DNA of 64,000 bases from positions 682,001 to 746,000 of the forward strand of contig CP126200.1 in the NCBI GenBank assembly GCA_030272155.1. The letters run 5' to 3'. The DNA comes from Tetradesmus obliquus (Eukaryota; Chlorophyta; Chlorophyceae; Sphaeropleales; Scenedesmaceae). Shown here in pieces: positions 18,521 through 62,978 of the stretch (position 1 is the stretch's first letter; the number at the start of each line of letters is the position of its first letter). The notes under the pieces are model-generated. The model was not told the DNA's origin. It saw only the letters and a list, made by a program, of their open reading frames with translations, and ran no database searches. Both the position numbers and the translations under genes were made by a program.

Positions 18521-20839
18521 TGCAGCAGCAGTAATGTGTCCCTGCTAGGCAACATGTTCCTGTCAGGAATTATCTTGGGGGCGTCTGCACACAGGACAAA
18601 TATTCAGCTTTCTGGAGCTGTCAGAAACCTGCTGGCAAAGCTTAGCGCAAAACCAGGCATCCTGCTGCTGCTGCTGCTGCGGCTGCTGTACTGCCGCCCC
18701 ACGCGAGTTGGGTTCAGCCATCTGCTAGCAACACGTCGCTGCCGGCTGCAGTGCCAGGTGATGGGCCCCTAATGCCTGATTGTAGCAGATGCAACTCTTC
18801 ATATGGTGCCCCACCTGAGCTGGTCCAGGCCATCTGCTAGGTACGCCAGCGCGCGCGTCACTTCAGTGTCACGGGCACGTTTATCAGGCAGCCTGCAGGA
18901 ACAGTGTGACATTGCAAATGTAACATATGACTTTTGCACCCGGCTGGCTCTCAGTCACACATGCAGATGATAGCGCGGGGCTGCCGGCACTTGTCGGCAC
19001 CCTTGTTGGCACACTTGTCGGCAGCCTGCAGGAGCACAACATGCCTAACTGTGTTCTTGGCTTGCTGTCAGACACACAGCCGATGTTGCGCACATATGTG
19101 TGTTGCTTCGCAAGCCATTCCCAAATCCCAGACCCATCGCGTGTTGGCCAGCAGGTGCGCCACGTCATGTACGATACTTGCTTGTCAGCAGCATATGCAC
19201 CATTCAACCCTAAACCCCTTAGTAATGACTCTACTCTGCAAGAACCTTTGCACCCACCGCGTGTTGGCAAGCAGGTGTGCCACGTCATCAACAATGATTG
19301 CTGCTGTGCAGCAGATGCACTAAAACCTGAACAATGATTGCTGCTGTGCAGCAGATGCACTAAAACCTGAACAATAATTGCTGCTGTGCAGCAGATGCAC
19401 TAAAACCTGAACAATGATTGCTGCTGTGCAGCAGATGCACTAAAACCTGAACCCCTTCATTTGTGTCTTACGTCTTCGCAAGCACTCGCCATATTTGACA
19501 CCCCGCACCCACCGCGTGTTGGCCAGGAGGTGTGCCACGTCATCAACAATGATTGCTGCTGGCGGCTGCTGCAGCAGGTGCAGGCAGGCTCCGTACTTGC
19601 GCAGTTGGTGCAGGTCGCTCACATACCTGCAGCGGCACATTGTTTTTGCAGCGTGCAGCAGCGTGCAGCAGCATGCGCGTTGGGCATGACCCCACGAGGC
19701 ATTGCGCGGCGTTCTCTGTGTATCGCTGTCATCATGAAACTTCTCGGTCATGAACACAAAGCAGTATGCAGTAGAGCCCGCATCAACTACGTCTACACGA
19801 AACACTGCAGAAGAAAACGTCGTGCAGCTGGCACTTACATGCACATGTACTGCGCTTCTTGACAGCCCAACACATCACTTGTACAAAACACAGCTGCAGG
19901 AGCTCATCAGACTGGCCCCCTGCTCACTTGAAGTGGATCCTGCTGAATGCCGCATGCTGCTGTGACGCCCCGAAGGGCAGCAGCGGCGGCGCCTGGTCCA
20001 GCTGCGCCCTGTCACACATGAACACCACCTCCTGGCCGCTGCATGCCAGCTGGAAGGCATACTGGAACAGCAGCGAGGTCTTGCCGCTGTATGATAAGAC
20101 AAGGAAAGCAGCCAGAAGAGGCGGCAGGCACGGGGGCGAGTAACATGGTGGCTTGTGGGTTGGTGATTGGTGTGCTGCTATACAGTGTGCTGCTGATGTG
20201 GCGTGCGGTTATGGCAAGGTGGCAGTAATAGAAAGCAGATCTGGAAGAAGCAGACTGTAGGGGTGGCAGGCACGGGAGCAAGTAGCATGGTGGGGTGTGT
20301 GCTGCGGTACAGTGTGCGGCACAGTATGCTGCATACTAGAGCAGCAGCGAGGTCTTGCCGCTGTGTTGCAAGACCAGCAGCCGGGAGGGGTGGCAGGTGT
20401 AGGAGGAGGTGGATTGGTGGATGGAGTGCAACGTTTGAGTGTGCTGCAGATGCGGCATGTGGCTGTGAGAAAGTGGCAGTGATGGGCAGCAGGGATGCTA
20501 GGGCCACTTCATTGGGTGCTGTGTTGTGTACGCAACACATGCAGACATGATAATCATGCAGCAGTATATGCCACAGTCTCTGTTGTGACTACTCCAGGTC
20601 GAATCAGCTGCTGTTGGTCTGCTGGTGCTGCTGCTGGTGCTGCCATGCCGTGTTAAGGTGTGCAACTGCAACCCAACCACTGGCACTGATGCCACAGGCA
20701 TGGCTAGCCGCCCTCACCTCCTCTGTGGCCCCAGCAGCAGGCACCTTGGGGTTGTCAGCTGTATGTGGGGCAGGGCGTTGATGGCCAGCTGCTGCGAGGG
20801 CTGCTGCACAAAATGCCCCAGGCTGATGCTGCAGGACAT
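17935..20839 (-). CDS. SWSAP1: SWSAP1-like RecA-fold ATPase (RAD51 paralogue type)
   Basis: Six exons: 20839..20718, 20086..19928, 19626..19513, 18892..18815, 18455..18343 and a last exon starting at 18035 or 17999 (both fit phase) and ending 17935. The product is about 228 residues, the size of animal SWSAP1. That protein works with the SWIM-domain protein SWS1 to support RAD51 filaments in homologous recombination. Walker A, GPQRSGKTS, is assembled across the first intron; a Leu/Phe helix follows (LLFQYAFQLACSG). RIHFKYVSDLHQLRKY and a Walker B (AAIIVDDVAHLLANTR) follow. The end has YLLQRWFPLMLQ, as in the family. The gene is divergent from the 5'-nucleotidase gene. Echoes of Walker A and Walker B exon pieces sit in its introns. 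Family assignment is from remembered motifs. Confidence 0.75.
19131..19560 (-). repeat. Echoes of the Walker B exon of the SWSAP1-like gene
   Basis: The end of exon 3 (coding IIVDDVAHLLANTR, 19513-19560) recurs at about 19252-19300 and 19131-19176 in the following intron. The middle copy keeps CACGCG|GTGGGT; the far copy has lost the donor GT. Confidence 0.85.
19290..19449. repeat. 40-bp tandem repeat, four copies
   Basis: Four near-identical 40-bp units (19290-19329, 19330-19369, 19370-19409, 19410-19449) differ by one base. The unit begins with the reverse complement of the AAIIV codons of the neighbouring exon, so it appears to have grown from an exon echo. No spacers separate the units. 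Confidence 0.95.
20062..20490 (-). repeat. Tandem copies of the Walker A exon start
   Basis: The start of exon 2 with its acceptor and about 140 bp of intron (20062-20230) is repeated at about 20336-20490, with a partial copy lacking the exon part at 20232-20335. The far copy still reads SGKTSLL after an ACACAG acceptor. Confidence 0.8.
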
Positions 20840-21350: not shown

Positions 21351-22197
21351 ATGTCTCCTCGTAAACTCACCATCATTCATTTAAACGACGTTTACAACAT
21401 CGAACCTTCTACCAATGAGCCAGTGGGAGGAGCTGCACGGCTCGTACACAAGGTGACCAGCAGGACAGCAACAAGCAGCAGCAGGAACAGCAGCTTCGTA
21501 GCACATTCGTCAGTCCTGCAAGCTGTAAATGTTGTAATATGCAGCAAGCAGATCAACAAACCTACCTCCTTGCTAAATCAAGGCAGAAGCCTGCAGGCAA
21601 TGTGCCAACAACATGCGTCTGTAATACTGTTGCAAGAGCAAGCAAGCACATAGCCTTGCGCCTGGCTGAACAATGCCGCACCAGAGCACGCTGCCTGAGC
21701 ACGCCCTTAGCACAGCAGCACAGCACTCATCACTCATTGTGTCTCACCTATTACTTCGCCATCTTAGTCACACAGTAGCAGCGGCAGCAGCAGTTTGACC
21801 ATGCCTATGCCTGCAGCAATGAGGTCTGTTGGCAGCATGCCAGGCCCAGATGCCTACAGCAGCCTAACTCCAAGGCTGCTGGGGTTGCAGCAAGGTCACT
21901 TATGCTACTTGTGTGTTGGCAGGTTTACAAATGTCTGTGTGACAGGTCAGTCTGCAGTTGCCCCAGTAACTCATTCTCGGCTTATTGTTGGGCCGCTACT
22001 GTGCTGCGCTGCCACTGTGCTGCGCCGTTTGGATATATGACTAAATGTCACTGCACGCTGCAGGTCAAGCAGCTGGTGTCAGCTGCTGGCGGGCCTGATG
22101 CCTGCCTGGTGCTGTTCAGCGGTGACGCCTTCAACCCCAGCCTCATGAGCACCATGACGCTCGGCAAGCAGATGGCGCGTGGACATGCTTGTGTAAA

Positions 22198-22260
<63 letters not shown>

Positions 22261-22335
22261 GGCGATGCCTTCAACCCCAGCCTCACGAGCACCATGACGC
22301 TCGGGAAGAAGATGGTGGTTGAACATGCATTTTGA

Positions 22336-22380
<45 letters not shown>

Positions 22381-25300
22381 TGTTACGCCTTCAACCCAAC
22401 TTCACTACACCCCTGTGTTGCTGCACACTCTGCAGGTGCCAGTGCTGAAAGCAGCAGGCGTGGCAGTGGCATGTGTTGGCAACCATGACTTTGACTTTGG
22501 CATCAAGAACTTCAGGTGTGGCTCACGGCACATTATATACACTTGAGTATGTTCTTTGTAATGATTCCAATCAACACAGTCTTATTTGAGGCCTATTCTA
22601 CTGCAAGTGCTGTGGGCATGACACCGCTCTGGACTCAGCTACCCAAAACATGCAGGCCAGCGTAGTGCAGCTGCCTGCGCTGCAGCTCTGATGGCAGCTG
22701 CTTCAACTTTGCAGTCAGAATAAACGTTTGGGCACTCTAAACCCAATAACTTCATAATAATCAAAAGCATTCAGGTGTGCCTCGCTGAGCTCTTTTGTAC
22801 TGTATCTGATGCTGCAGGGACCTGGCAGCACAGTGCGGCTTTCCTTGGCTGATGGCCAACGTGCTGGATGTTGAAACAGGTGTGGATGCAGCTCTAGCTG
22901 CAGCACCTAATGCATTGCAAGGCAGGCCTGCAGTGCATAGCTGTAAACAGATGAAGCAGGGCTCAGCACATCAGTGCAGTTGTGCAGCCTATGTGTGTTG
23001 GTTGCCCCTGCTGCAGAGGAGCCGCTAGGGTGACACGCTTGAACTGTCCAGCTTAAACAACCATAGCACGGCCCATAACTCTTGGATGTGTGTATGCAAC
23101 TGTGTGGTGATTGCTTCGTTGCAGGGGAGCCGTTGGGAGGCGTAGGCCGCACGCTGCTGCTGCAGCACCCCTCAGGCATCAAAGTGGGTGTCATCGGGCT
23201 GGTAGAAGGCGACTGGTGAGTTGGCAGCAGTAGCAGCAGCACCAGCAGCAGCAGCAGTCATGAGCAGCCAAGCTGCTATGCACCTAGGTGTAAGTATACT
23301 GTTGAGGTTGGCACAGCAGCGACTAGTCAGGGCACGTTTGCGTGCACAGGGTGAATTCAATCCTTTGCACGCCTGGCACAGCAGTTCTGCGACGTGCTGC
23401 AAGACATGTCCAGTGTTTCCCTCTACTGACAACCTTGTAGGCGAGCTGCACAGGTCTATGGGTGTTCAACGCCTGTTTGCTGCGCAGAGTCTATCACACT
23501 TGATACAAACGTGCATTCCATACCGTATTGAGGTCTGACTGCAGGATTCTCTGTGCTGCCTTCCTTCTATACTGATTGAGATCAGGGTGGAGACGCTGGC
23601 GTGTGTGGAGCCGGAGGAAGTGCAGTACCTGGACTTTGTGACTGAGGGGCAGAAGCTGGCGCGCGAGCTGCGGGTAAGATGCAGCAAACACAGGCTGTTC
23701 AACAGCAAGTTGCTGGGCTGCTTTTGATTGTGATGGCGATGAGTTGCCTGCCTGGACTTTGTGGCCGAGGGGCAAAAGCTAGCGCGCGACTGCGGGTGAG
23801 GCCAACATGAGTTGCGCATCTGCGCATCTGCGCTGCAGCATGCTGTGTTGCCGTATTCAGCAGGTGCAGCGGATGCCTTGTGTGTGCATGTGTATGTTCT
23901 GTGCACGTGTGTGTTCTGTGATTCTCAAAGCCTACACAACTAGAGCCTGCCAGTGGGTGTATGTGAAGATGTTGCTAATCTTGGAGTGTCAGCAGCTGCA
24001 GGGTTCACTGAAGGTATTCCTCACCTAGGTGGTTATGTTGATGCGCTTGGAGATTCGATTGCCTCGAAGCACATCAACATAAGTGCGTACGTGGAGAATA
24101 CCTTTGTGTTACTCACAAGCTATGATATTGTCAAGCATGTGCAGCGAATAAGACCTAACGCCTGCTGCTGCTTGTGTATCTGGTGCTACACTTGACTCCT
24201 GGCGAGCTTGGGTTGGGTCGACACGCTAACTGCAGATGTTGCAAAGTTGGCGAGTTGCGCTGCTCACGTGTCTGGCGCTGAGGTGGAGGCAGCGCTGACG
24301 CCATGTAGCAGTAGATGTAGCGTTGCTTGTAGGCCTGCCAGTTGCGACTGTTGCCGTGTTGCTGTGCAGACGTCTGACGCATTGTGAACTGTTGTGCTGC
24401 GCAGGCGGCTGGCGCCGAGCTGGTCGTGGCGTTGACGCAAATGCGCATGCTGCTGCATTTGAATTGAATGCCGACGGGCCTGGTTCAAAAGCTGCATAAC
24501 ACACCTTGTTTTTTATCATGTGGTGCAGGCAGCTGGCGCTGAGCTGGTGGTGGCGCTGACGCACATGCGCGTGCCCAATGACATCAAGCTGGCGCAGTCA
24601 GTACAGGAGATAGACGCTGTGCTGGGCGGGCACGATCACCACGTGCAGGTGTGGCTTAGTGCTAGATAGATAGAGGGGTTACACGGTGTGTTCATGCGGC
24701 ATACGCCACCACAGACATTTGTCATGCATTACAACAGCACAGCTGGCTTAGCACTGTTGTACATTGTCTAAAGATGTACAACACGGTAAAATGTCTAAGA
24801 GCTAAGTAGGCTTTGCTCTACTCATGGGCAGTTGCGGTGTGGCTTGTTGCTCCAGCATGCAAACTCATTGGTTGGGCATCATGTGTTCAATGGTGCACGT
24901 GTGCGCTTGCGTGTGTGGTGTGTCTGCCCTGCAGATAGAGTTGGTGCAGCCGCACGGCAACCTGCTGTGCAAGTCAGGCACGGACTTCAAGAACGTCACT
25001 GCAATTAAAGTGACAATGCCAGAAGCAGCAGCGGCAGATGGGGACAGCACGACTGCCAACGGCGGCAGCAGCCACCCAGCCAATGGCGCAGCAGCAGCAG
25101 CAGGCTGGCCATCATTCAGCTGGCAGGAGCATGCCATGACTTCAGATGTGCCGGAAGATCCAGACATAAAACAGGTGGGGGATGGGGGGCATTTCTGGCA
25201 CTGCTATGAGGGCATGCTGGTATGTAGTCTGACAGGTAGTAGCAATGAACAATGGCAGCGCTGCTGTTGCACATCCAGCCTTGTCACAAACATACAAAAT

Positions 25301-28300
25301 GATGGTGGTTGCCTGTCAACCACAACAACTGGATCCAAGCACTTGACCAATCACACCACCTTATGCTACCCAGCATCCGCCTGACCACCAGCGTCTGTGC
25401 CTGCTGTTGTTGTCGCTCTTACCAGGTGGTTGAAGAGTTTGCGTCCTCCACAACTGCAGGCCTAGATGGAGAGCTCGGCCACACACTGACAGACCTGGAT
25501 GGTAGATTTGCAACAGTGCGCATGGCAGAGTCCAACCTGTGCAACCTGCTGGGCGACGTGTTCCGGCGCGCATGCAGCGCTGACGTGTGCATCCTGAACA
25601 GCGGCACCTTCAGGTGGATTTTTGTTTCGGATTGTTTGGTTGGACCGGAGTAATGTGTGCATCCTCAACAGCGACACTTGCAGGTGTGGTTTGTTTCTGC
25701 TTGTTTGTAACTTGTTGTGCTGACGTGTGCATCCTCGACAGCAGCACCTTCAGCTGGGATTTTCTTTTGTTTGGTTGTGACTGTCCTGACGTTAGCATCC
25801 TCAACAGCGGCACCTGCAGGTGGGTTGGTTTTGGGTTGTTTGCATTGAACTATGACTGTATGCGGCATGCAAGTCGGACACCATTCACCCCGCAGGTGCG
25901 CTGATGCACCGGGACCTGGCGACCATCCTGCCTATGATTGATGCATCGCACTCAGCAGGCGCGCAAACTCACCTTGAACCGACCTGCTACCTTGCTGCAT
26001 TGCAGGTCCGATGCCATTCACCCCGCAGGTGCGCTGACGCACCGCGACCTGGCGACCATCCTGCCTATGATTGATGACACGGTGGTGCTGCAGGCCAGCG
26101 GGCAGCAGCTGCTTGAGGCGCTGGAGAACGGTGTGAGCTGCTACCCCAAGCTGGAGGGGCGCTTCCCCCAGGTGACGGAGTGTACATCAGTTTCTTGTGT
26201 ATGTTTTGTGACTTTACAATGTTGTGTTTCGTGCCAAATGCATGTTTCACTGACATGTCACGTCACTTGAAAAGAACAGCGTTAGCTGCTGCCCCAAGCT
26301 GGAGGGGCGCTTCCCACAGGTGACACCCATTTCAGGTATACGTTACAACTTTGATGTTTTATATGCCAACTGCATATGTCACTGACATGACACAAAATTT
26401 CAAAGAGAACGGCGTCAGCTGCCTACCCCAAGCTGGAGGGGCGCTTCCCGCAGGTGACGCCAGCTTCATGAGCATATCTGAATCGGACTTTTTGATGCCA
26501 GCTGCACTATTTAATGAAATGTCACGTCACTTCAGAACTCCCACAGCCACGCTCAGCAAAAGGCACTCCAGCCTGACGTCAGTTTCTATGTTTGCCAGCT
26601 GTTTGCCAACTGTTTTCATTGAAAAAGACTAAGCAAGCATAACGCCACTGCCTGCAGGCCAGCGGCATCAGCTTTGCCTTTGACCCATCACAGCCGCCCG
26701 GCTCAGGCAGCCACACTGTTTTGCTTCATAATATTGACATTAACCCGTTCCGTTTTGCTGCCTGCAGGTCAGCGGCATCCGCTTCACCTTCGACCCCTCA
26801 AAGCCGCCAGGCAGCCGCGTGCTGCACGACTCGGTCACAGTCGGCAGCGAGCGGGCACCCCTGGATCCTGCTAAAACCTACACCCTGGCAACCAAGGCCT
26901 ACCTGGCAGAGGGCAAGGATGGCTATGACGTGCTGCAGGTGCGCTCGATGTTTTCTGTGCATTTATGTGTCGAAAAACCTACACCCTGGCCACCACGGCT
27001 TACCTGGCAGAGGGCAAGGATGGCTACAATGTGCTGCAGGTGCGCTCAAGTGTTCTGTGCATTTGTGTGTCTAAAAACCTACACCCTAGCCACCAAGGCC
27101 TACCTGGAAGAGGGCCAGGGCGGCTGCGATGTGTTGCAGGTGAGCAGCAGGCCTGCACTGTGCACATGCTGAGATGCATGTGTCCTTTTCTGTTGTTTGA
27201 CACAACATAAGTAGCGACTGGCGGTGGTCTCCTGACTGCTTTTATCGTCGTCTGGTGCATAATTGCGCGAGCAACATTTTGTGTGTGAACGCTGTGTGAC
27301 TGCTGCACCACATGCCTGCCTCTCTGCCTTGCTGCTGCCTTGCTGCTGCTGCTGCTGCTGCTGCAACACCAGGGCTGCCGCGTGCTGCTGGATGCGGAGG
27401 TGTGCCCCGTGATGCCCACCGTGCTGCGCAACTTCTTCGCCATGCTGGAGGTGGGGTTCTGATAGGTTGCCAATGTCAAGGATGATTGCTGGTTTCTTGA
27501 AGCGGCTTGGAGTGTGCGTGATATCTGCAAAACATGAAGGAGCAGTGCCCCCTCCTGTTGCCGCTCCAGTGGGGCGTAGGGCCGACGGCATTGATGTAAG
27601 GTAAGCTATGGCTTGATGGGTAACATGATGATGATGCCATGCTGGAGGTGTGGGCCCCCACTGGGGCAGATGTGGAGACGCAAGCGGCTGCTGCAGCCTC
27701 GTGCTCACAGCACAAAGCTGGCTGGCTGGCTGGCTGATGGCAGGCAGATAGGACATATGCATTCGTGCTCCTCGCTGCACCCTTGGATGCGCTGGAACCT
27801 GTTGCTGCTTTGTTGTATGTGCAGGTGCCAAACCAGCTGGAAGCCAACGATCAAGGTTCTGCATTTGGGCACCCCCCAGCACCAGCATAAGGGCATGCGC
27901 ATCTAACACCGTGGCTGCTGTGTTCCACATGCAGGTGCTCAACCTGCTGGACCCCAAAATCAACATCAGGGACACAGACAGCTGCATTTGTGCACCCTCA
28001 GCACCCTTGACCGCGCCAACAGCTGTTGCTGCTGTTTTGCCCGTGCAGGTGCTCAATCTGCGGGATCCCAAGATCATTACCAACTGCACATTGGCGCCTT
28101 TTCATGTGACTTCAATCTCTGCCTGCTGCTGGCTCATATTACCTTGCAGGTGCTCAACCTGCTTGACCCCAAGGTCAAGGTACAGACCTTTGCCAAGCGC
28201 TGGGCGCAGGCCATAAAGCACAAGGGCCGCGACAGGCAGACAGACCTCATCACAACCGGCGGCTGCGTGAAGTGCCCGCAGACGGGGCGTTATGTAGTGG

Positions 28301-28452
28301 CACCTAAGCTTGATGGCCGCATCACGTGTGTGGGCCAGCAGCAGCAGCAGCAGCAGGAAGAGCGGGAGCAGCAGCAGCAGCAGCAGGCCCCTGCCTGTGA
28401 GGCGCTTGCTGGTGCTGGCGAGGGGTCGGCGGCAAAGAAGCAGAAGCAGTAG
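21351..28452 (+). CDS. 5'-nucleotidase / UshA-family metallophosphoesterase
   Basis: Thirteen exons: 21351..21452, 22064..22174 (end uncertain), 22436..22515, 22818..22879, 23125..23215, 23586..23673, 24529..24648, 24935..25174, 25426..25613, 26006..26171, 26768..26938, 27373..27450 and 28150..28452. Apart from the exon 2 end, phases match and give about 599 residues. The enzyme should hydrolyse nucleotide or other phosphomonoesters with two metal ions. Metal-site motifs are in order: HLNDVYNIEP, FSGDAFNPS, GNHDFDFG, ALTHMR and GGHDHH. The C-terminal 5'-nucleotidase domain shows SGTDFKNVTAI, NSGTFRSDAIHPAGALT and ALENGVSCYPKLEGRFPQ, and the tail is Gln/Lys rich. There is no signal peptide, so it is probably intracellular. 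Most introns carry extra copies of an adjoining exon edge. Confidence 0.88.
22064..22400 (+). repeat. Exon 2 and its echoes, separated by a CAG run
   Basis: Coding bases for DAFNPSLMSTMTLGKQM (22121-22174) recur at 22261-22314, offset 140 bp, with a long CAG run between, and weakly at about 22380-22400. The echo has ATG|GTGG at the expected splice point whereas the first copy has ATG|GCGC. Confidence 0.8.
23618..23795 (+). repeat. Echo of exon 6 end
   Basis: The last about 45 bp of exon 6 (LDFVTEGQKLARELR, ending 23673) recur at 23752-23795 with a one-base loss and a GTGAGG donor, offset 122 bp. Confidence 0.85.
24271..24575 (+). repeat. Acceptor-side echoes of exon 7
   Basis: The exon 7 start (AAGAELVVALTHMR, from 24529) is preceded by two copies, 24405-24447 with its GCGCAG acceptor and a poorer one at about 24271-24305. 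Confidence 0.85.
25580..25819 (+). repeat. Three donor-side echoes of exon 9
   Basis: The exon 9 end, coding DVCILNSGTFR and ending 25613, recurs with junctions at 25683, 25753 and 25819, a spacing of 70, 70 and 66 bp. Two of three copies keep CAG|GT; the middle one has CAG|CT. Confidence 0.92.
25865..26071 (+). repeat. Acceptor-side echo of exon 10
   Basis: About 70 bp of exon 10 start (HPAGALTHRDLATILPMID) with upstream junction appears first at 25868-25940 and then as the used exon from 26006. The copies differ at few bases. Confidence 0.92.
26129..26453 (+). repeat. Two donor-side echoes of exon 10
   Basis: The exon 10 end (NGVSCYPKLEGRFPQ, ending 26171) recurs with junctions at 26319 and 26453, spacing 148 and 134 bp. 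Both keep CAG|GTGAC. Confidence 0.92.
26653..26815 (+). repeat. Acceptor-side echo of exon 11
   Basis: The exon 11 start (VSGIRFTFDPSKPPGS, from 26768) has an upstream copy at 26660-26708 that keeps CCTGCAG and reads ASGISFAFDPSQPPGS. Confidence 0.88.
26875..27139 (+). repeat. Two donor-side echoes of exon 11
   Basis: About 65 coding bases of the exon 11 end (KTYTLATKAYLAEGKDGYDV, junction 26938) recur with junctions at 27039 and 27139, spacing 101 and 100 bp. Both echoes remain open and keep CAG|GTG. Confidence 0.95.
27822..28175 (+). repeat. Acceptor-side echoes of the last exon
   Basis: The start of the last exon (VLNLLDPK, from 28150) is preceded by copies at 28050-28074, 27934-27957 and a poorer one at about 27825, each after a GCAG acceptor. 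A very short echo of exon 12 end is also visible at 27634-27647. Confidence 0.85.
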
Positions 28453-38952: not shown

Positions 38953-39977
38953 ATGAAGCATTTGTGTTTAGTTCTTGGACTGTTGCTGGCGTCACACTTA
39001 GCAGCAGCAGCAGGTGCCCGTCGCGCTCGTGTTAGCAGGGACCACCAGTGCAACAGCGACATGCAGATCGTCATGTGCGGACAGATCCCGCTTTCATCGA
39101 TTTCAGAACGCAGGGCGTGCTGCAGAACCTTCAGGTCTCCTGTGGCTTCTGCAGCAGCAGATCCTGCAGCAGCAGCCCCAGCAGCAGCAGGTGCACAGCC
39201 CATGCAGGAGCCCCAAATCCGTCCATACCGAGCTGACTTGGATACTAATGATGGCATGCGGTCACCCCCTCTTGACTGGCAGTACAGTAGGGGCTGCACA
39301 GCCGCCATCAAGGTAAGGGTTCCGGCTGCAAACCCGTTGGCGGCAGCAATATGCAGGCCAGCACGACCGCAGCAGAACTGCTGTATACCAGGACAGCGTT
39401 AGCCACAGTTGCTGCATACCCCACCACATCACCATATCTTAAGCGCAAAGTTCCGATGATGTTGTTATGTATGCTGCTGCTTCGGCTCTTTCAGGTCGAC
39501 GTGCCAGTCTTCCTGAATGGTGGCAAAGTGCAGATCGTACAGCAGACAGCGCCGCAGCTCACCAAAGACGCCGTGCAGAAGATCCAGCAAGCAGCACTTG
39601 CTGCCACACGATCAGATGTGCAGCAGGCAGCTGCCAGGCTTCGCACAGTCAGCAAGGCCAGTGGCTTTTTGCATCCAGGCACATGCATGGGCCCTGTTGA
39701 GGTAGCAACGATGCAGTACAGAGTGAGGAATAGAGTGGAGCCACAGGCGACAGCAAAAGATGCACTGCTGTCAGGTGCGTGGCGCTAGGGTGCCGGCAGT
39801 TGCGATGCTCGACAGCCTTACTTGCAGGCAGTGCTGCAGTGCTGCAACCCAGCACAGCAGCTGCAGCTGCAGCTGCTTGTAACCATCAGCAAATGAGCAT
39901 GTAGTATGCATGTTCAAGAAGCAGCCAAAGAAAGAGAGTCAAAGAATGCTAGTGAGCAGGTACATGTATGTGTCAGG

Positions 39978-40016
<39 letters not shown>

Positions 40017-40172
40017 TCCTGAATCTTGCGGCATTAATTGCAGCCTCTGAAGAGAGACTATTGCAGCTGTAACAGGCTGCACTCTATGTCTTGACAACAA
40101 AAGGCACTAATGGCACTCTCTTGCCAACCTGGCTGCAGTCTCAGCAACAGCAGCCAGCATGTGCCTGCCTCA

Positions 40173-40243
<71 letters not shown>

Positions 40244-43183
40244 ATGCTTGCTGTGCAGGCGCCGGCGTGCCCCCCAAGCTGTACCCAGGCAACTGGTCTG
40301 TGCCGCAGGCCACCCCCCTGAGCTACTCGGGGCCATATGCCATGGAAACAATTGACATCAAGTGGTGAGCCGCCTCGCCAGAAATGTGGCTGTTGTTTGT
40401 TCCTTGGTGTGATTGCACGCAGTACACGGTTGATTGACTTGTCTGCCAAGACGCAGTCCACTGCATGCTGCGTGATGCGGCACACTCCTTTCACATTGTC
40501 TGTGCGTAACATAGTTGAACATAGTAGTACTCCCAGCATCTGTCAGCTCATGCTTGCATTGATCCTGCTGCTGCTGCCGCTGCTGTGCTGCCGCTGCTGC
40601 TGCCACCTTACCCACCCTGCAGGTCTGGCATCAACACCGACAAGGTGGTGTGCCCGCAGCACTACCCTGCAGCCGCCCCCAGCATCTTATGTGGCCACAT
40701 CTCCTTAGTAGAATTCGATGCAGAGCAGTCCCTGAAACAGGCAGTAGCATACCTGGCCACCGGGCAGCAAGCTTACATGGCCAATGCGCTGCGCATTGTT
40801 GACGCTTGGGCTGCCACAAACAAAGTGTGGGGCGTGAAGGAGCAGAACGGACCTCTGGAGGCTGGCTGGGGTGAGTCTGCATTGTAAGGTTGTGTAGGGG
40901 AGGATGTTGTGGGCTGTTCCTTGCTGGCTGTATCTTATGAGCGCACACATGCGTGTGGCTAGGCTTTGAAGTGAATGGCGCATAAGCTGTAGAGCCGAAG
41001 GGACAGCATGCAGCCAAGCACCATTGACGCCTGGGCTGCCACCAACATATGTGCCTGCTGCACGTGTGGCTGTGTGTATTGTTGTGTACAGCAAGTAGGC
41101 TGCATGCCTGCATGCTACTATGTCTGCGATTCAGTCTACTGCTTGTGCCTGCTGCAGCGTGTGCCACCATGGCCAAGACCCTGGAGCTGCTGCGCGACCA
41201 GCCTGCTGCTGCGGGCGCCCTGCAGCGCTTTGCGCGCTGGGTGGATGGCGTGATGATGCCGCAGATGGACTTTTATGCGGATGAGGTCACGCCAGTCAAC
41301 CTGGCCCTGGGCACCAAGCACCTCTACGGTGAGTCGTGGTTGAAACACAGTGCATTGTTCAATTGTAGAGGTCTGGCTGGCCGCTGCATGTATGCTGAGT
41401 GTGTGATGTGGCATGGCAGTGGCAGGGTGTTTGCAGCAACACAAGTCCAGGCTGCTGCAGCCAAACAGTGTGCCTTCCGTGATGTGTGCTGGTTTGACAC
41501 CGCAGTTGCTGCAAAACGCAGGGCTAATCGCCACGGGATGCAGGTAGCCGCACAAGATAAACGCAGCCTTGTGCCTGCAGTACCTCAAATCAGTGTTGAG
41601 TGCATTGCGTTTACCGCTGCTGTGTGTCTGCAACACCTTGGCAAAAGAGTGCAACTTGTTGCGCTCTTTGTTGCAGGCAACTGGCACTCCACTGTGGCCG
41701 AGTGCTTCATGTCGTACGGCATCCTCACAGACAACCGCTCCCGTTATGACAAAGGAGTCAAGCTGTTCCAGGAGACTCTGAAAGACTACCTCAAGTGGGG
41801 CAGGGGCGGCTTCACTGAGGGTGGCCGCATTATTGGCGAGTGCAGCGAGACACTGAGGGACATCTACCACTCACAGTTTGGGTTTGGTGAGTCTTGCAAG
41901 TACACTTGATATCAAGAGCTTGCAGAACTTACAAGTGGCGGGTAGCTTAGTAGCCCAACACCTGTGGGATCAGGTGGTCCTGTCCCAGCGTTGCAGCGCA
42001 TGGCATGCAGGCAAGGCGTGTTGTGAGGCTTCACATCGGCCCAGCAGGCTGCGCCTACTGCTGGCAGTGCAACCAACGCCAGCATGGTATGCAGATCTAG
42101 AGCCGATGACAATTGACGATAACCCTCCAGCTCTCCACTGCGGCACCAAACTGTTGCGGGCCTGTCAGCTGACTGGGTTTTTGCCGCTGCTGCTGCATGA
42201 CCTGGCCAGGTGGTTTGATCCAGGCTGCAGAGATTGCCTGGCAGCAGGGAGAGGACCTGTACTCCAGCAGCAACTACGCACTGGTGCCAGCGCTGGAGTT
42301 ACACGCGCGCATAATTCGCGCATACCAGTCGAACGACTCGTCGCTGCTGCCGAGCGGCTTCCGCTTCGGCGACGACATGCCGCCCGCGCCGGAAGGCACC
42401 ACGTGGAAATTCGACATCCGGCAGCAAGCGTGGCAGGCCTTCAACATGACGACGATGCAGCCGGTTGCAAACCTAACGGACGGATATAAATACCTGATAG
42501 GTGTTATGTTTTTGCCGACTGGTTGGGAGGTGGCACACAACCACTTCGTGGGCAGGTTGGGCATGAAGATGCCCGAGACTGCAGCACTTTTGGCGGGAAA
42601 CTGGCCAGAGTGGCAGGTGGGTGGCTGACAAGGTGGCAGCATGGCAGCAAGCAGCAGCAGCCTGGGCATGTGACTGAAGGATGTTTGGATGTTACACGCA
42701 TGCATGGCAAGTCGCTCGCTGCTTTGTTGCGCACACAGAGTGCGCTGCACTTCTCGCATTACCAGCATGCATCCGATGCAGTGGACCTTGATGCTCAGTG
42801 TACCTCATTCAGACGCGCGCTGCAGAACCACTGCTGCTGCTGCTGCAGTCCTTTCACGCGGGCCTGGGCAGCCTGAATGGGCAACGCATGCAGGGCAGCC
42901 GCTGGTTGCTTGCTGCTTTGCTGCGCACACAGGTTGCTCTGCGCTGCACGCGTGCATCAAGAAACTCAATGTACTTTGATCAACTGCGTGGTGATGACTC
43001 AAACTGCTGCTGTCACCGCTGCCGCCTGCGCCGCTGCTGCTGCTGCTGCTGCTGCTGCAGTCCTTCCACTGGGGCCTGGGCAGCCTGAGCCATGCCGGCA
43101 CTGCTGGCGAGCTGTGGAGGCCAGGGGTGCAGCATGCAGCACTGTGCAGCAGCCAGGCGTCAGCGCCAGCAAAGCGGGGCTGA
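38953..43183 (+). CDS. Secreted alginate-lyase-superfamily protein
   Basis: Eight exons: 38953..39312, 39495..39774, 40259..40364, 40623..40870, 41158..41328, 41677..41886, 42210..42616 and 43061..43183. All phases agree and give 634 residues. The N-terminus is a signal peptide (MKHLCLVLGLLLASHLAAAA), so the protein enters the secretory pathway. Family motifs are ALRIVDAWAATNKVWG, NGPLEAGWACATMAKTLELL, GNWHSTVAECFMSYGI, YDKGVKLFQETLKDYL, GGLIQAAEIAWQQGEDLYSS, a EVAHNHFVGRLGMKMPET block equivalent to the ExxYNHY segment, and HWGLGSLSHAGTAGELWRPG. These are the marks of the alginate lyase (PF05426-type) alpha-barrel. Green algae are not known for alginate, so the substrate may be another wall uronan or glycan. 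Introns before exon 5 and exon 8 hold exon echoes. Confidence 0.85.
40174..40244. repeat. CTG run upstream of a splice acceptor
   Basis: About 23 CTG units ending 15 bp before the exon 3 acceptor of the lyase-like gene. It sits where a pyrimidine tract is expected. A shorter AGC run is at 39979-40014 in the same intron. Confidence 0.95.
41019..41053 (+). repeat. Echo of exon 4 internal coding sequence
   Basis: Bases coding IVDAWAATN in exon 4 (about 40795-40822) recur at 41022-41048 in the following intron, reading IDAWAATN. Confidence 0.75.
42830..43095 (+). repeat. Acceptor-side echo of the last lyase exon
   Basis: A CTG run, CAG and the first about 35 coding bases of the last exon (SFHWGLGSLSHA, from 43061) occur earlier at 42834-42877. 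The echo reads SFHAGLGSLNGQ. Confidence 0.88.
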
Positions 43184-45312: not shown

Positions 45313-45708
45313 ATGAATAACTCCAACAGCAGTCTGAACAGCCCCGACATTGGCTGTGGCTTCCTTCCACGGCTTGGCGGTGGCATTGGAGCCTTCTGCT
45401 CGATTCCGAGCTCGACATACCCTGCAGATGCGTACGCAACGTCTCAGCAAGCGGGCGTTTACCTTACGCGTTGCCCGGCAAGTGGCCTGCCGGGGGCCCT
45501 GTGGCAGCAGCAGCAGCAGCAGCAGATGCAGATGCAGCAAATGCAGACTCAGGCTTGTCTGTCACAGCCGCAGCTGATGCTGTTTGAAGACCTTTCAGAC
45601 GATTACCTGCTTCAGGACGATGCAGATGAGTGGAATGGGGCCCCTGTCAGTGTTGATGATTGGCTGGCTGGCTTCTACAATAGCAGCTCACTTGCAGCAC
45701 CCACTGGC

Positions 45709-45744
<36 letters not shown>

Positions 45745-46356
45745 CCTGGCATCTACAGCAGCTACTCTGGCCAGCTCAGCGTGGCAACCAGCAACAGCCA
45801 CACCAGCAGCTGCAGCTTGCACACTGACAGTGCCCTGCTGTCAAACTGGCAGCAGTCATCACACAGCCCCCTGCAGCGGCAGCAGCAGCAGCAGTGGCAG
45901 GCACCCATGCTCAACATGTCTCCATCACCACTGCAGCAGCAGCAGCAGCAGGCATTGATGCTCGACCAGTCACAGCCACTGTACACCTTGCAGCAGCAGC
46001 GTCATCCGCAGCAGCTGCTGCAGTCCATTGCAGCAGCAGACACAGCAGGCGCCCTGATCGCCTCCGTTGGCGCATATTTGGATGCTGCCGTTGCCGCTCA
46101 CACGACACTTCCTGATGACAATGCAATGCTTGGTGGCAACAGCAGCAGCTTAGAGGGTATGCTTACCAGTGCTTTAGAGGGTGCTGCCAGCCCTGATGCT
46201 GACTCAGCACCTGCTGTCACAGCTTTTAGCAGCAGCAACAGCACACGCACAACAGCAGCTGCTGCACCTGCAATGCCAAGGCAGCAGCAGGTTGGACATA
46301 ACCACAGCGCGCCTTTCAGAACAGCAGCAGCAGCAGGCAGCGGCAAGCCCCAACTT

Positions 46357-46401
<45 letters not shown>

Positions 46402-46788
46402 GCGGCACCTCCTAAGACTCTGTGCATGCAGCGTAGGGCCGCAGGCCTGCAGCAGCACCAGCAGCAGCAGCAGCAACAGCAGCAGCGGCAGCCCAAGCGC
46501 TGTGCTAGCGATGCATTGCATGGCAGCGCCAGCCACAAGAAAGCATGCATGACCCCAAAGCAGCAGCAGCAGCAGCAGAAGCAGCAGCAGCGAGCAGGAA
46601 GGGCTGCAGCAGCTGTTGCAGCGGCCGCCGGCACAGGCGCCCGGGCTGGGCACGTCTTAGCAGGCCAGGCTACTGCTGCTGCTGCTGCTGCTGCGCAGAA
46701 GCGCATTGTGGAGCAGCTGCTGCAGCATATCTCGACGTGTGCTGGCAGCCGCGGATCTGGCAGTGGGGCGGACTGCAGGCAGCGCTGA
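45313..46788 (+). CDS. Unrecognised acidic Gln/Ala-rich protein (paralogue A)
   Basis: A single coding exon of 491 residues, starting at the ATG that aligns with the start of its paralogue at 57664-59373. Shared blocks are SPDxGC near the start, QLMLFEDL, APVSVDDWLAG, YSGQLSVA, HTSSCSLHT, QQLLQSIAAADTAG and a basic ASHKKACM near the end, followed by a QKRIVEQLLQHI helix. The acidic, hydrophobic LMLFEDLSDDYLLQDDAD segment resembles a transcription activation region, and the Lys/Arg patches could act in nuclear import; both are inference. Low-complexity Gln and Ala runs separate the blocks. A CCTTGCAG acceptor at 45259 suggests a 5' exon, perhaps untranslated. No known family is recognised. Confidence 0.6.
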
Positions 46789-57663: not shown

Positions 57664-58638
57664 TCAAGGCTGCCTATGTACCCCTGCTTCTGCCAAGACT
57701 TGCAGCAGCTGCTGCTGCAAAGCACGCTTCTGCGCAGGAGAGGCAGGACCACTCATTGCCTGGCCTGCTGGCAGGTGCCCTGCCAGGCTGGCCTTGTCAG
57801 CTGCAGCTGCAGCAACAGCTGTGCGCTGCTGCTGCTGCTGCTGCTGCTGTGCTGGCATAACATACGGTTTCTTATGGCTGGCATTGCGCAGCACTTCATC
57901 AACTGCACTGCGCTTCAGCCGCCGCTGTGCCTGCTGCTGCTGCTCATCTCCAGCCCTGCACTGCATCAGCAGGGTCCTAATAGCTGCTGCTGCTGCTGTT
58001 GCTGCAAGCTGGGGGCTGCTGCTGCCAGCCGCTGACGTCGTAGCAAGTGGAGAGTTGTACTGCCCCACCTGCTGCTGCTGCACTGCAGGCGCAGCTGCTG
58101 CTGAAATGCTGCTGCTGCTGCTGCTGGAACCGGTCAGCAAACCACCTGGCACGACCTTGGCAGCGCGTGCTAAGGCATAAGGGCTGCTAATAGCTGCTAC
58201 AGGCGGCTTGGCGTTGCTGCTGCTGCCACTGCTGCTGCAGCAAAAGCTGCTACGGGCAGCAGCAGCAGCATAGCCTGCATCAGGTGTAGCGCCAACGACA
58301 GTAAATGCAGCGCTTCCGCTGTCAAAGCCTGATTCAACTCTTGCTGCTGCTGCAAAGACGTTTGTGGTAGCAGTAACAGGGCCAGCTGGACCCTCTAGAC
58401 CACCGAATGCGCTCTGCAGGCTGCAGTTGCTGCTATCACCCAGGTTGCCAGGTGATGTGCCTTGAGTGGCGATCGCAGCATTGAGGTACGCACTGATGGA
58501 TTCAATGAGGTCGCCGGCTGTCTCTGCTGCTGCGATGGGCTGCAGCAGCTGCTGTGGTTGGCGTCGCTGCTGCTGCGGCGGCGGCAGCGGTGCGCTCCAC
58601 AGCCCCTGGCTTGGCACCGCCCACTGCTGCTGCTGCTT

Positions 58639-58669
<31 letters not shown>

Positions 58670-58722
58670 ATTGTAGATGGCGACAGATTAGGCATTGGCA
58701 CCTGCCACTGCAGCTGCCAGTG

Positions 58723-58780
<58 letters not shown>

Positions 58781-58926
58781 AGGGCGCTGTTTATGGACTG
58801 CTGCCAACCTGGCAGCAGGGGTTCGGAGGTGTGCAGGCTGCAGCTGCTGGTGTGGGTGGTGCTGGCTGCCACGCTGAGCTGGCCAGAATGACTGTCATAG
58901 CCGCCAGGTGCCGTCGCAGCTGCTGC

Positions 58927-58957
<31 letters not shown>

Positions 58958-59373
58958 CCAGGGTGTGCTGCCATGGAGTTGCTGTTGCAATAGCCAGCTA
59001 GCCAATCATCGACACTGACAGGGGCCTCATCCAGGCCATCTACATCTTGCAAAAGATCATCGTTGTCAAAAAGATCCTCAAAAAGCATCAGCTGTGTCTC
59101 CGATTGTTGAGCCTGAGGCGGCACTAGCTGCAGCAGGTGGGAGGGAGTTGTGCTGCTCCCTCCTACCTGCTGCTGCTGCTGCTGCTGCAACAGCTCAGCT
59201 GGCAGATGGCCAGCGGAGTAGCTGCTGTACGTAAGTGAATGTTGTTGTGATGGTGTGTCTGCGCACAGCATCGAGCTTGGAAGCCAGCAGAAGCCTCTCA
59301 TGGCCTCGCCAGGCTGCGGAGTCAAGCTACAGCCGTTGTCTGGACTGGCGAGGCTGCCCGTGCAGTAGTCCAT
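57664..59373 (-). CDS. Unrecognised acidic Gln/Ala-rich protein (paralogue B)
   Basis: A single coding exon of 569 residues from the ATG at 59373. It is the partner of the 45313-46788 gene and points towards it. Matching blocks are SLASPDNGC, QLMLFEDLFDNDDLLQDVDG, APVSVDDWLAG, HSGQLSVA, HTSSCSLHT, QQLLQPIAAAETAG, the basic ASHKKPYVM and a C-terminal QKRALQQQLLQVLAEAG helix. This copy has longer Gln runs (about 20 around 58730-58780) and an extra Ala/Ser-rich segment. As in paralogue A, a GCTGCCTTGCAG acceptor lies just upstream (59423), so a 5' exon is likely. The acidic-hydrophobic block could be an activation region; function is unknown. The shared blocks are the best evidence that both are real genes. 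Confidence 0.62.
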
Positions 59374-62574: not shown

Positions 62575-62978
62575 CACATGACATCACACAAAGTCAATGA
62601 CAAAAGTTCAGCAGCAATAAGAAAAAGCCTCCTGAAACTTTCCTTTGGCTATTCAACTACCTTGGTCACGCAACGCGTGGCTTCCACACGACATTGCCGC
62701 CGCCGCTGCTGCTGCTGCTGCTGCTGCTAGCTGGGGTGTGGCAAGGATCGCTCATTACAGTGCATCATACTACTATGAATACTACTATTCATATATATAG
62801 GGTTTAGGGTTTAGGGTTTAGGGTTTAGGGTTTAAGGTTTAGGGTCTAAACCCTATATATATACCACTGCTAGGCCTTCTTAAGCAAGCCACTTGCTGTG
62901 CCCTTGTTGGCAATTGCCACCGTCCCACTCAACAGTTATCTGTTCGTATAGCCTCAGCCAGCCTGCAGCTGTTCCTGC
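62575..62978. other. Spacer or 5' intron with interstitial telomere repeat
   Basis: About 400 bp between two minus-strand genes. It contains a CTG run at 62707-62729, a possible short exon of the homeodomain-like gene (62726..62661) and the TTTAGGG block at 62791-62862. No other coding sequence is seen. Confidence 0.5.
62791..62862. repeat. Interstitial telomere-type repeat inside a palindrome
   Basis: About six TTTAGGG units (62797-62845, one TTTAAGG variant) are followed at once by an inverted CTAAACCC. Arms ATATATATAGGGTTTAG (62791-62807) and its exact reverse complement (62846-62862) close the block. Confidence 0.95.

Follow-up and report, generated by a model that had tools for sequence, protein, structure and literature searches.

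Introns of the green alga Tetradesmus obliquus carry copies of adjoining exon edges, probably left by recurrent short tandem duplications

How do introns come to carry extra copies of the edges of the exons beside them? The question is raised by a 5'-nucleotidase gene of 13 exons in a window of 64,000 nt from Tetradesmus obliquus (contig CP126200.1, here C10, positions 682001-746000; the genome comprises 104.66 Mb on 17 contigs). Several exon ends of this gene are repeated downstream in the following intron, and several exon starts upstream in the preceding one; we refer to these copies as echoes. The gene model was built by eye and its reading frame is open throughout. It is 97% identical to P0001 (OEZ85_003402), an annotated T. 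obliquus protein, with identical exon joins, and a spliced alignment of P0001 places all 13 exons at the same coordinates, through the stop codon.

21351..28452, + strand, 5'-nucleotidase gene, 13 exons (open frame, identity to P0001, spliced alignment)
21351-21452, 22064-22174, 22436-22515, 22818-22879, 23125-23215, 23586-23673, 24529-24648, + strand, exons 1-7
24935-25174, 25426-25613, 26006-26171, 26768-26938, 27373-27450, 28150-28452, + strand, exons 8-13

Each exon edge was compared with its own intron by best local score, with 200 dinucleotide shuffles and 11 other introns as controls. Exon-end echoes were identified in introns 2, 6, 9, 10 and 11, with scores of 45, 34, 29, 39 and 54 (controls at most 18), and exon-start echoes upstream of exons 7, 10, 11 and 13, with scores of 34, 61, 29 and 23 (controls at most 19). 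These nine edges are among 11 listed in a sequence-only reading of the locus; the other two do not exceed chance against their own introns, the end of exon 12 scoring 12 (shuffle maximum 17) and the start of exon 5 scoring 11 (14 in shuffles). Introns 6, 9, 10, 11 and 12 hold more than one copy of an edge: three of the exon 9 end, and two each of the exon 10 end, exon 11 end, exon 7 start and exon 13 start. Tandem Repeats Finder (TRF) recovers 70-bp and 100-bp periods in introns of the gene, and the regular offsets of about 70, 100 and 140 bp given in that reading agree with intron 9 (70 and 140), intron 11 (101) and intron 2 (140). The exon 11 end has three scored matches in the genome, counts that are lower bounds, and all lie inside this gene.

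22258..22314, + strand, exon 2 end echo with GT donor (copy of 22118-22174), 140 nt downstream (score 45, controls at most 14; alignment)
23751..23795, + strand, exon 6 end echo with a 1-base deletion, followed by GTGAGG (score 34, controls at most 17; alignment)
24272..24305, + strand, second, weaker exon 7 start echo (score 23)
24405..24450, + strand, exon 7 start echo, 124 nt upstream, CAG just before it (score 34, controls at most 19)
25655..25683, + strand, exon 9 end echo 1, in an array of 70-bp period at 25580-25842 (TRF, copy alignment)
25719..25753, + strand, exon 9 end echo 2, GT changed to CT (score 29)
25786..25819, + strand, exon 9 end echo 3
25873..25943, + strand, exon 10 start echo (copy of 26006-26076), 133 nt upstream, AG changed to AA (score 61, controls at most 16)
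26273..26319, + strand, exon 10 end echo 1
26405..26453, + strand, exon 10 end echo 2, CAG|GTGACG retained (score 39)
26660..26702, + strand, exon 11 start echo, 110 nt upstream (score 29)
26974..27039, + strand, exon 11 end echo 1, 101 nt downstream, tandem unit of about 66 exon and 35 intron bases (score 54; TRF period 100)
27074..27139, + strand, exon 11 end echo 2 (TRF)
27935..27963, + strand, exon 13 start echo, 215 nt upstream, CAG just before it (score 23, controls at most 15)
28049..28076, + strand, second, weak exon 13 start echo, below the counting threshold of 20 (score 18)

The modelled donor of intron 2 (22175-22435) is GC, whereas the echo of the exon 2 end has GT.

The analysis was extended to 264 kb in all, comprising the window and 20 kb from each of ten contigs (C1-C10, from base 1,000,001). 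Self-trained ab initio gene finding on this sample drifted, the exact 5'-nucleotidase exons falling from 10-11 to 2-5 of 13, and was replaced by protein-anchored spliced alignment. Proteins found through similarity anchored 11 genes, from the window and seven of the ten stretches (seven contigs), which provided 76 introns; ten of these genes were picked regardless of echoes, the remaining one being the 5'-nucleotidase gene. Residues 1-463 of 629 of P0135 (OEZ86_005216, T. obliquus) align to C10 in ten exons that no stop interrupts, and the PurU locus was modelled from P0141, which is just 70-92% identical to it. P0124 (doubtful 3' exons) and the first exon of P0121 (two stops in the model, one persisting in the best frame) were dropped before counting; P0127 and P0285 each aligned in one unbroken block and were left unmodelled, and P0241 was realigned on a longer stretch. 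The counting threshold, a score of 20, was chosen after the null was seen.

An echo of the adjoining exon edge was detected in 29 of the 76 introns (22 exon-end and 13 exon-start echoes, 35 in total). Introns paired with edges of other genes gave 15/5,182, and non-adjoining edges from within the same gene gave 0/388; the far edges of the flanking exons gave 1/40 and 0/45. Thresholds from 18 to 30 move the count from 31/76 to 24/76, and 23 of 64 introns have an echo when the 5'-nucleotidase gene is excluded. At least one echo occurs in 10 of the 11 genes, the exception being a MAP kinase gene (0/8 introns). We thus confirm that echoes are real, that they extend beyond the 5'-nucleotidase gene to the other spliced genes, as had been claimed, and that they occur in about four in ten introns examined; the density was rightly described as unusual. 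A literature search, made without most subscription journals, returned no description of exon-edge echoes at such density, and a phage search gave no match. The process is a known one, and its density here is apparently undescribed.

The anatomy of the copies indicates what was duplicated. The distance from the true junction to the best-scoring echo ranges from 97 to 394 nt, with 26/35 at 97-159, 27/35 at 97-178 and 8/35 at 212-394; nearest copies can sit closer than best-scoring ones (70 nt for exon 9). The aligned exon parts are 28-95 nt long and 69-98% identical, and are clearly shorter than the exon except for GSH1 exon 4 (71 of 78 nt), unlike whole-exon duplications. In 23 of the 35 cases, the stretch from exon to echo is repeated again beyond the echo, above 50 shuffles, and in a stricter test, which masks simple repeats and ignores the splice consensus, the intron half is repeated in 18/35. 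Since the intron half is repeated too, most echoes are DNA tandem duplications spanning the exon-intron border, which upholds the serial tandem duplication proposed in the sequence-only reading; clear cases are introns 9, 10 and 11 of the 5'-nucleotidase gene and intron 5 of a mannosyltransferase gene. Unit size agrees with the 50-200 bp of the short tandem duplication class, and the whole unit is repeated head to tail for most echoes, not all. Only 5/35 junction-echo distances are divisible by three (p 0.018), a depletion on which we do not build.

Introns with an echo have a median length of 518 nt, compared with 287 nt for those without (p 1e-7), a comparison biased by the greater room for matches in longer introns. 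The 996-nt intron 5 of GSH1 (stretch L012, 3862-4857) contains five exon-end copies, and three of the later ones translate to AVALHLISSWTQDDRDYLR. An extra copy of the GSH1 C-terminal coding end was also identified about 115 nt past the last exon (stretch L012, 5502-5582); copies thus occur at the gene 3' end too.

We consider it likely that recurrent short DNA tandem duplications across exon borders lengthen introns and duplicate splice sites, and that they do so without intron gain; introns would be lengthened, and splice sites duplicated, because the copies sit inside existing introns and each unit consists of exon plus flanking intron. Short tandem duplications, mostly of about 100-150 bp per unit, would recur throughout the non-coding DNA of this genome. 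A unit straddling an exon-intron border would take with it tens of exon bases and the flanking intron, and a further donor would arise downstream or a further acceptor upstream. The first donor and the last acceptor would still yield the original message, so that the gene survives, and the protein-anchored gene models suggest that these outer sites are the ones used in vivo. The inner copy would become an intronic echo, probably decaying in near-neutral fashion while selection holds the exon, and repeated events would produce arrays and longer introns. The molecular cause may most likely be patch repair of nearby nicks, by analogy with the proposal made for rice tandem duplications of this size.

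Echoes were also compared with local copies in background DNA. This comparison, which the sequence-only reading had suggested, was run in part, as a search for a copy of a 70-nt segment within the next 352 nt. Exon ends (22/76) and exon starts (13/76) exceed the 8.8% recorded for 4,554 positions drawn at random from unannotated DNA, a set that takes in genes lacking annotation. The figure is 24% of 136 for intron interiors and 0/31 for exon interiors. Because intron interiors are this rich, we regard the duplications as a general feature of this intronic DNA and not as special to exon edges; they stand out at exon edges, in part since one of the two copies there is under protection and can still be recognised. 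A copy of an intron's first 70 nt occurs in the remainder of that intron in only 8/69 cases, and of its last 70 nt in 1/69. Faster drift of two unprotected copies is expected to give such an asymmetry between edges and introns, but copying of exons only would give the same pattern. Local repeats of the 264-kb sample are most often spaced 110-150 bp apart (64 of 265 pairs), and those in unannotated DNA have only a slight three-base rhythm (0.366 vs 0.352).

Exon and echo differ at 50/647, 31/647 and 131/644 of first, second and third codon positions. For the 18 units with an aligned intron half, the intron part differs at 171/805 positions with 34 gaps, and the exon half at 24/331, 17/331 and 62/329 by codon position with 7 gaps, that is, at 41/662 first and second positions compared with the 62/329 third positions. 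The 35 alignments contain 14 gaps, every one of them frame-breaking (12 deletions and 2 insertions in the echoes); the echoes therefore do not look coding now, and strict in-situ coding was rejected. Stop-creating changes (4/93 nonsynonymous) are not visibly avoided. Third positions are in excess in 33/35 echoes, and a strong reading of this was tempered by a decay null in which the exon changes only synonymously and the echo drifts freely, under the observed transition bias. One-sided decay of this kind predicts much of the codon-position pattern. In the arrays, echo-only changes number 54, 46 and 87 by codon position and exon-only changes 25, 17 and 57 (p 0.10). The changes could not be polarised, as the echo-only ones are third-position rich too and not clearly different from the exon-only ones.

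Several of these results weigh against recurrent tandem duplication followed by free decay. A repeated intron half was lacking in 12/35 echoes, and 17/35 either failed the masked test or fell short of the length that it needs. In intron 9 of a UBA-domain gene, the echo comprises 55 exon bases at 98% identity; it stops precisely at the junction and its flanks are unrelated, features not expected of a simple tandem copy. Intron interiors match exon ends in local-repeat richness. First and second positions of the echoes diverge by about 0.06, compared with about 0.105 expected from the intron halves, and the synonymous share is 119/212 (56%) compared with 43% expected under one-sided decay (z 3.8; z 2.4 without the three strongest echoes). 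Exon halves thus seem somewhat better preserved than free decay would leave them. Detection by exon similarity favours well-kept exon halves, accounting for part of the excess; copying from a diverged allele would account for the rest.

Such copying, in which another haplotype contributes its exon end beside the resident one through unequal exchange or template switching, so that the two copies differ like coding alleles before decay follows, is unlikely, and it is the least unlikely of the alternatives. Besides the synonymous excess, the three strongest echoes have synonymous:nonsynonymous differences of 9:1, 7:1 and 5:0 (by totals, FCP1 intron 2, FCP1 intron 5 and COX15 intron 2), and the intron half is about as diverged as third codon positions. 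Four of the five copies in GSH1 intron 5 read SSWTQDD, as far as translated, where their own exon reads SSWSQDD, and an exon of another algal transcript (P0137, GHRR01008667) reads SSWTQED at this site. Against this, one-sided decay should produce most of the third-position excess, and two echoes match the resident exon at 98% identity. The wider proposal is one that we also rate as having a low probability: recombination between haplotypes matching only in exons would keep refreshing the echoes, so that introns archive the coding sequence of other alleles and supply strong, sometimes used, strain-variable spare splice sites.

Echo sites could instead be functional alternative splice sites, or be translated, and be kept by selection. 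GT is retained in 15 of the 22 exon-end echoes and AG in 11 of the 13 exon-start echoes, so that the claim that most copies keep AG|GT holds in this wider set. Scored with a leave-one-out matrix, echo donors average 6.1 bits (7.8 among those above 0). Intronic GT in general averages -3.2, and the real donors of these introns 9.2; the echo donor equals or exceeds the real one in 11/22. Echo acceptors average 6.3, compared with 9.3 for real ones. Extra splice sites are thus supplied in number, as had been noted. P0138 and P0139, T. obliquus entries with many residue differences from P0135, represent one UBA-domain protein, P0139 having a 39-residue insert that P0138 lacks. This insert starts QLSPGALLALAEMGYA, which is the echo of an exon start in UBA intron 7, and P0139 reads as a predicted isoform using the echo acceptor. 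In the present genome this echo lies 97 nt away and has a 5-nt deletion, whereas in the P0139 record it is in frame, at a probable spacing of 117 nt. In S. acutus, phytochelatin synthase has intron-retaining transcripts in which intron 4 can provide the arginine codon that exon 5 otherwise contributes, according to the available part of that report (PMC12899622). Still, the frame-breaking gaps and the stop-creating changes described above argue against maintenance by selection, and use of the echo would bring a stop at 16/22 donors and 6/13 acceptors, with just 2/35 sites open and in frame. We hold selection for function to be quite improbable.

The sequence-only reading had linked the copies to intron gain across AG|GT, the model of Rogers, in which the introns themselves are born by tandem duplication across exonic AG|GT. 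The echoes are mostly tandem and many retain AG|GT, as that model would have it. Its geometry, an upstream-exon copy ending at the intron 3' end or a downstream-exon copy beginning at the intron 5' end, was found in 0/22 exon-end and 0/13 exon-start echoes, and the duplicated units include true intron sequence; this part of the interpretation falls, and we judge such an origin very unlikely. An assembly artefact, such as linearised haplotype bubbles, is scarcely credible: allele-like differences between copies and the preponderance of deletions in the echoes would suit it, but the five copies within GSH1 intron 5 and the fixed periods do not, and our sole reply from outside the assembly is the different T. 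obliquus protein record P0139, which contains the same UBA echo at another spacing.

A second gene modelled in the window, of the alginate-lyase family, has an echo in one of its seven introns.

42849..42876, + strand, exon 8 start echo in intron 7 of the alginate-lyase-family gene (39202-43180) (score 22; gene model)

Elsewhere in the window, TRF identified a 40-bp unit repeated four times at 98% match (19290-19452), more uniform than the echoes, and about seven copies of TAGGGTT (62798-62845), which we take to be a rotation of the plant-type telomere repeat; these lie inside the chromosome and not at its end. Two open stretches on opposite strands (45337-46773 and 57706-59232) encode related peptides (LMLFEDL...APVSVDDWLAG) and are possibly a local inverted gene pair.

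If the density found here holds genome-wide, recurrent tandem duplication would provide a route by which introns lengthen, as well as a natural experiment on splice-site choice, with a large proportion of introns carrying, some 100-150 bp from the site in use, a plausible second donor or acceptor. Echoes are a possible source of strain-specific isoforms, and they could mislead gene prediction: the ab initio finder initially predicted 19-20 exons for the 13-exon 5'-nucleotidase gene. The mean intron length reported for T. obliquus is 462 bp; for four other green algae, of which three belong to the Sphaeropleales, the means are 230-302 bp, in the portion of the source available (PMC5966456).

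Several known systems bear comparison with the echoes. As far as the accessible text of one report describes, the RdRp gene of potato gained an intron through tandem duplication across an intron-exon boundary (PMC4974935). The potato case resembles the echoes in that the tandem duplication includes an intron end and an exon start and the splice signals are inherited from the parent copy; it differs in that one gene is concerned and a new intron was created, whereas here 29/76 introns are affected and the copies lie inside existing introns. Duplication of the Rogers AGGT type, as outlined in the same text, shares with the echoes a local tandem duplication at AG|GT, but the arrangement that it requires occurs in 0/35 cases here. 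In rice, tandem duplications are described, in the part of the study available, as the commonest source of insertions, highly enriched at 50-200 bp and falling above 125 bp, and are attributed to repair of adjacent nicks, or patch repair (PMC7971508). They are like the echoes in size class, in tandem form and in being better tolerated outside exons. Unlike the echoes, the rice insertions were dated with outgroups and, in that part of the study, are not linked to exon edges, and a repair cause for the echoes is one that we only infer. Introners, in the section of the source consulted (PMC9860276), likewise have large genome-wide effects on introns. They are dispersed copies of one element, whereas echoes are private copies of the adjoining exon: no homologous element was found in many unrelated introns, the echo part matching adjoining introns in 29/76 cases and introns of other genes in 15/5,182.

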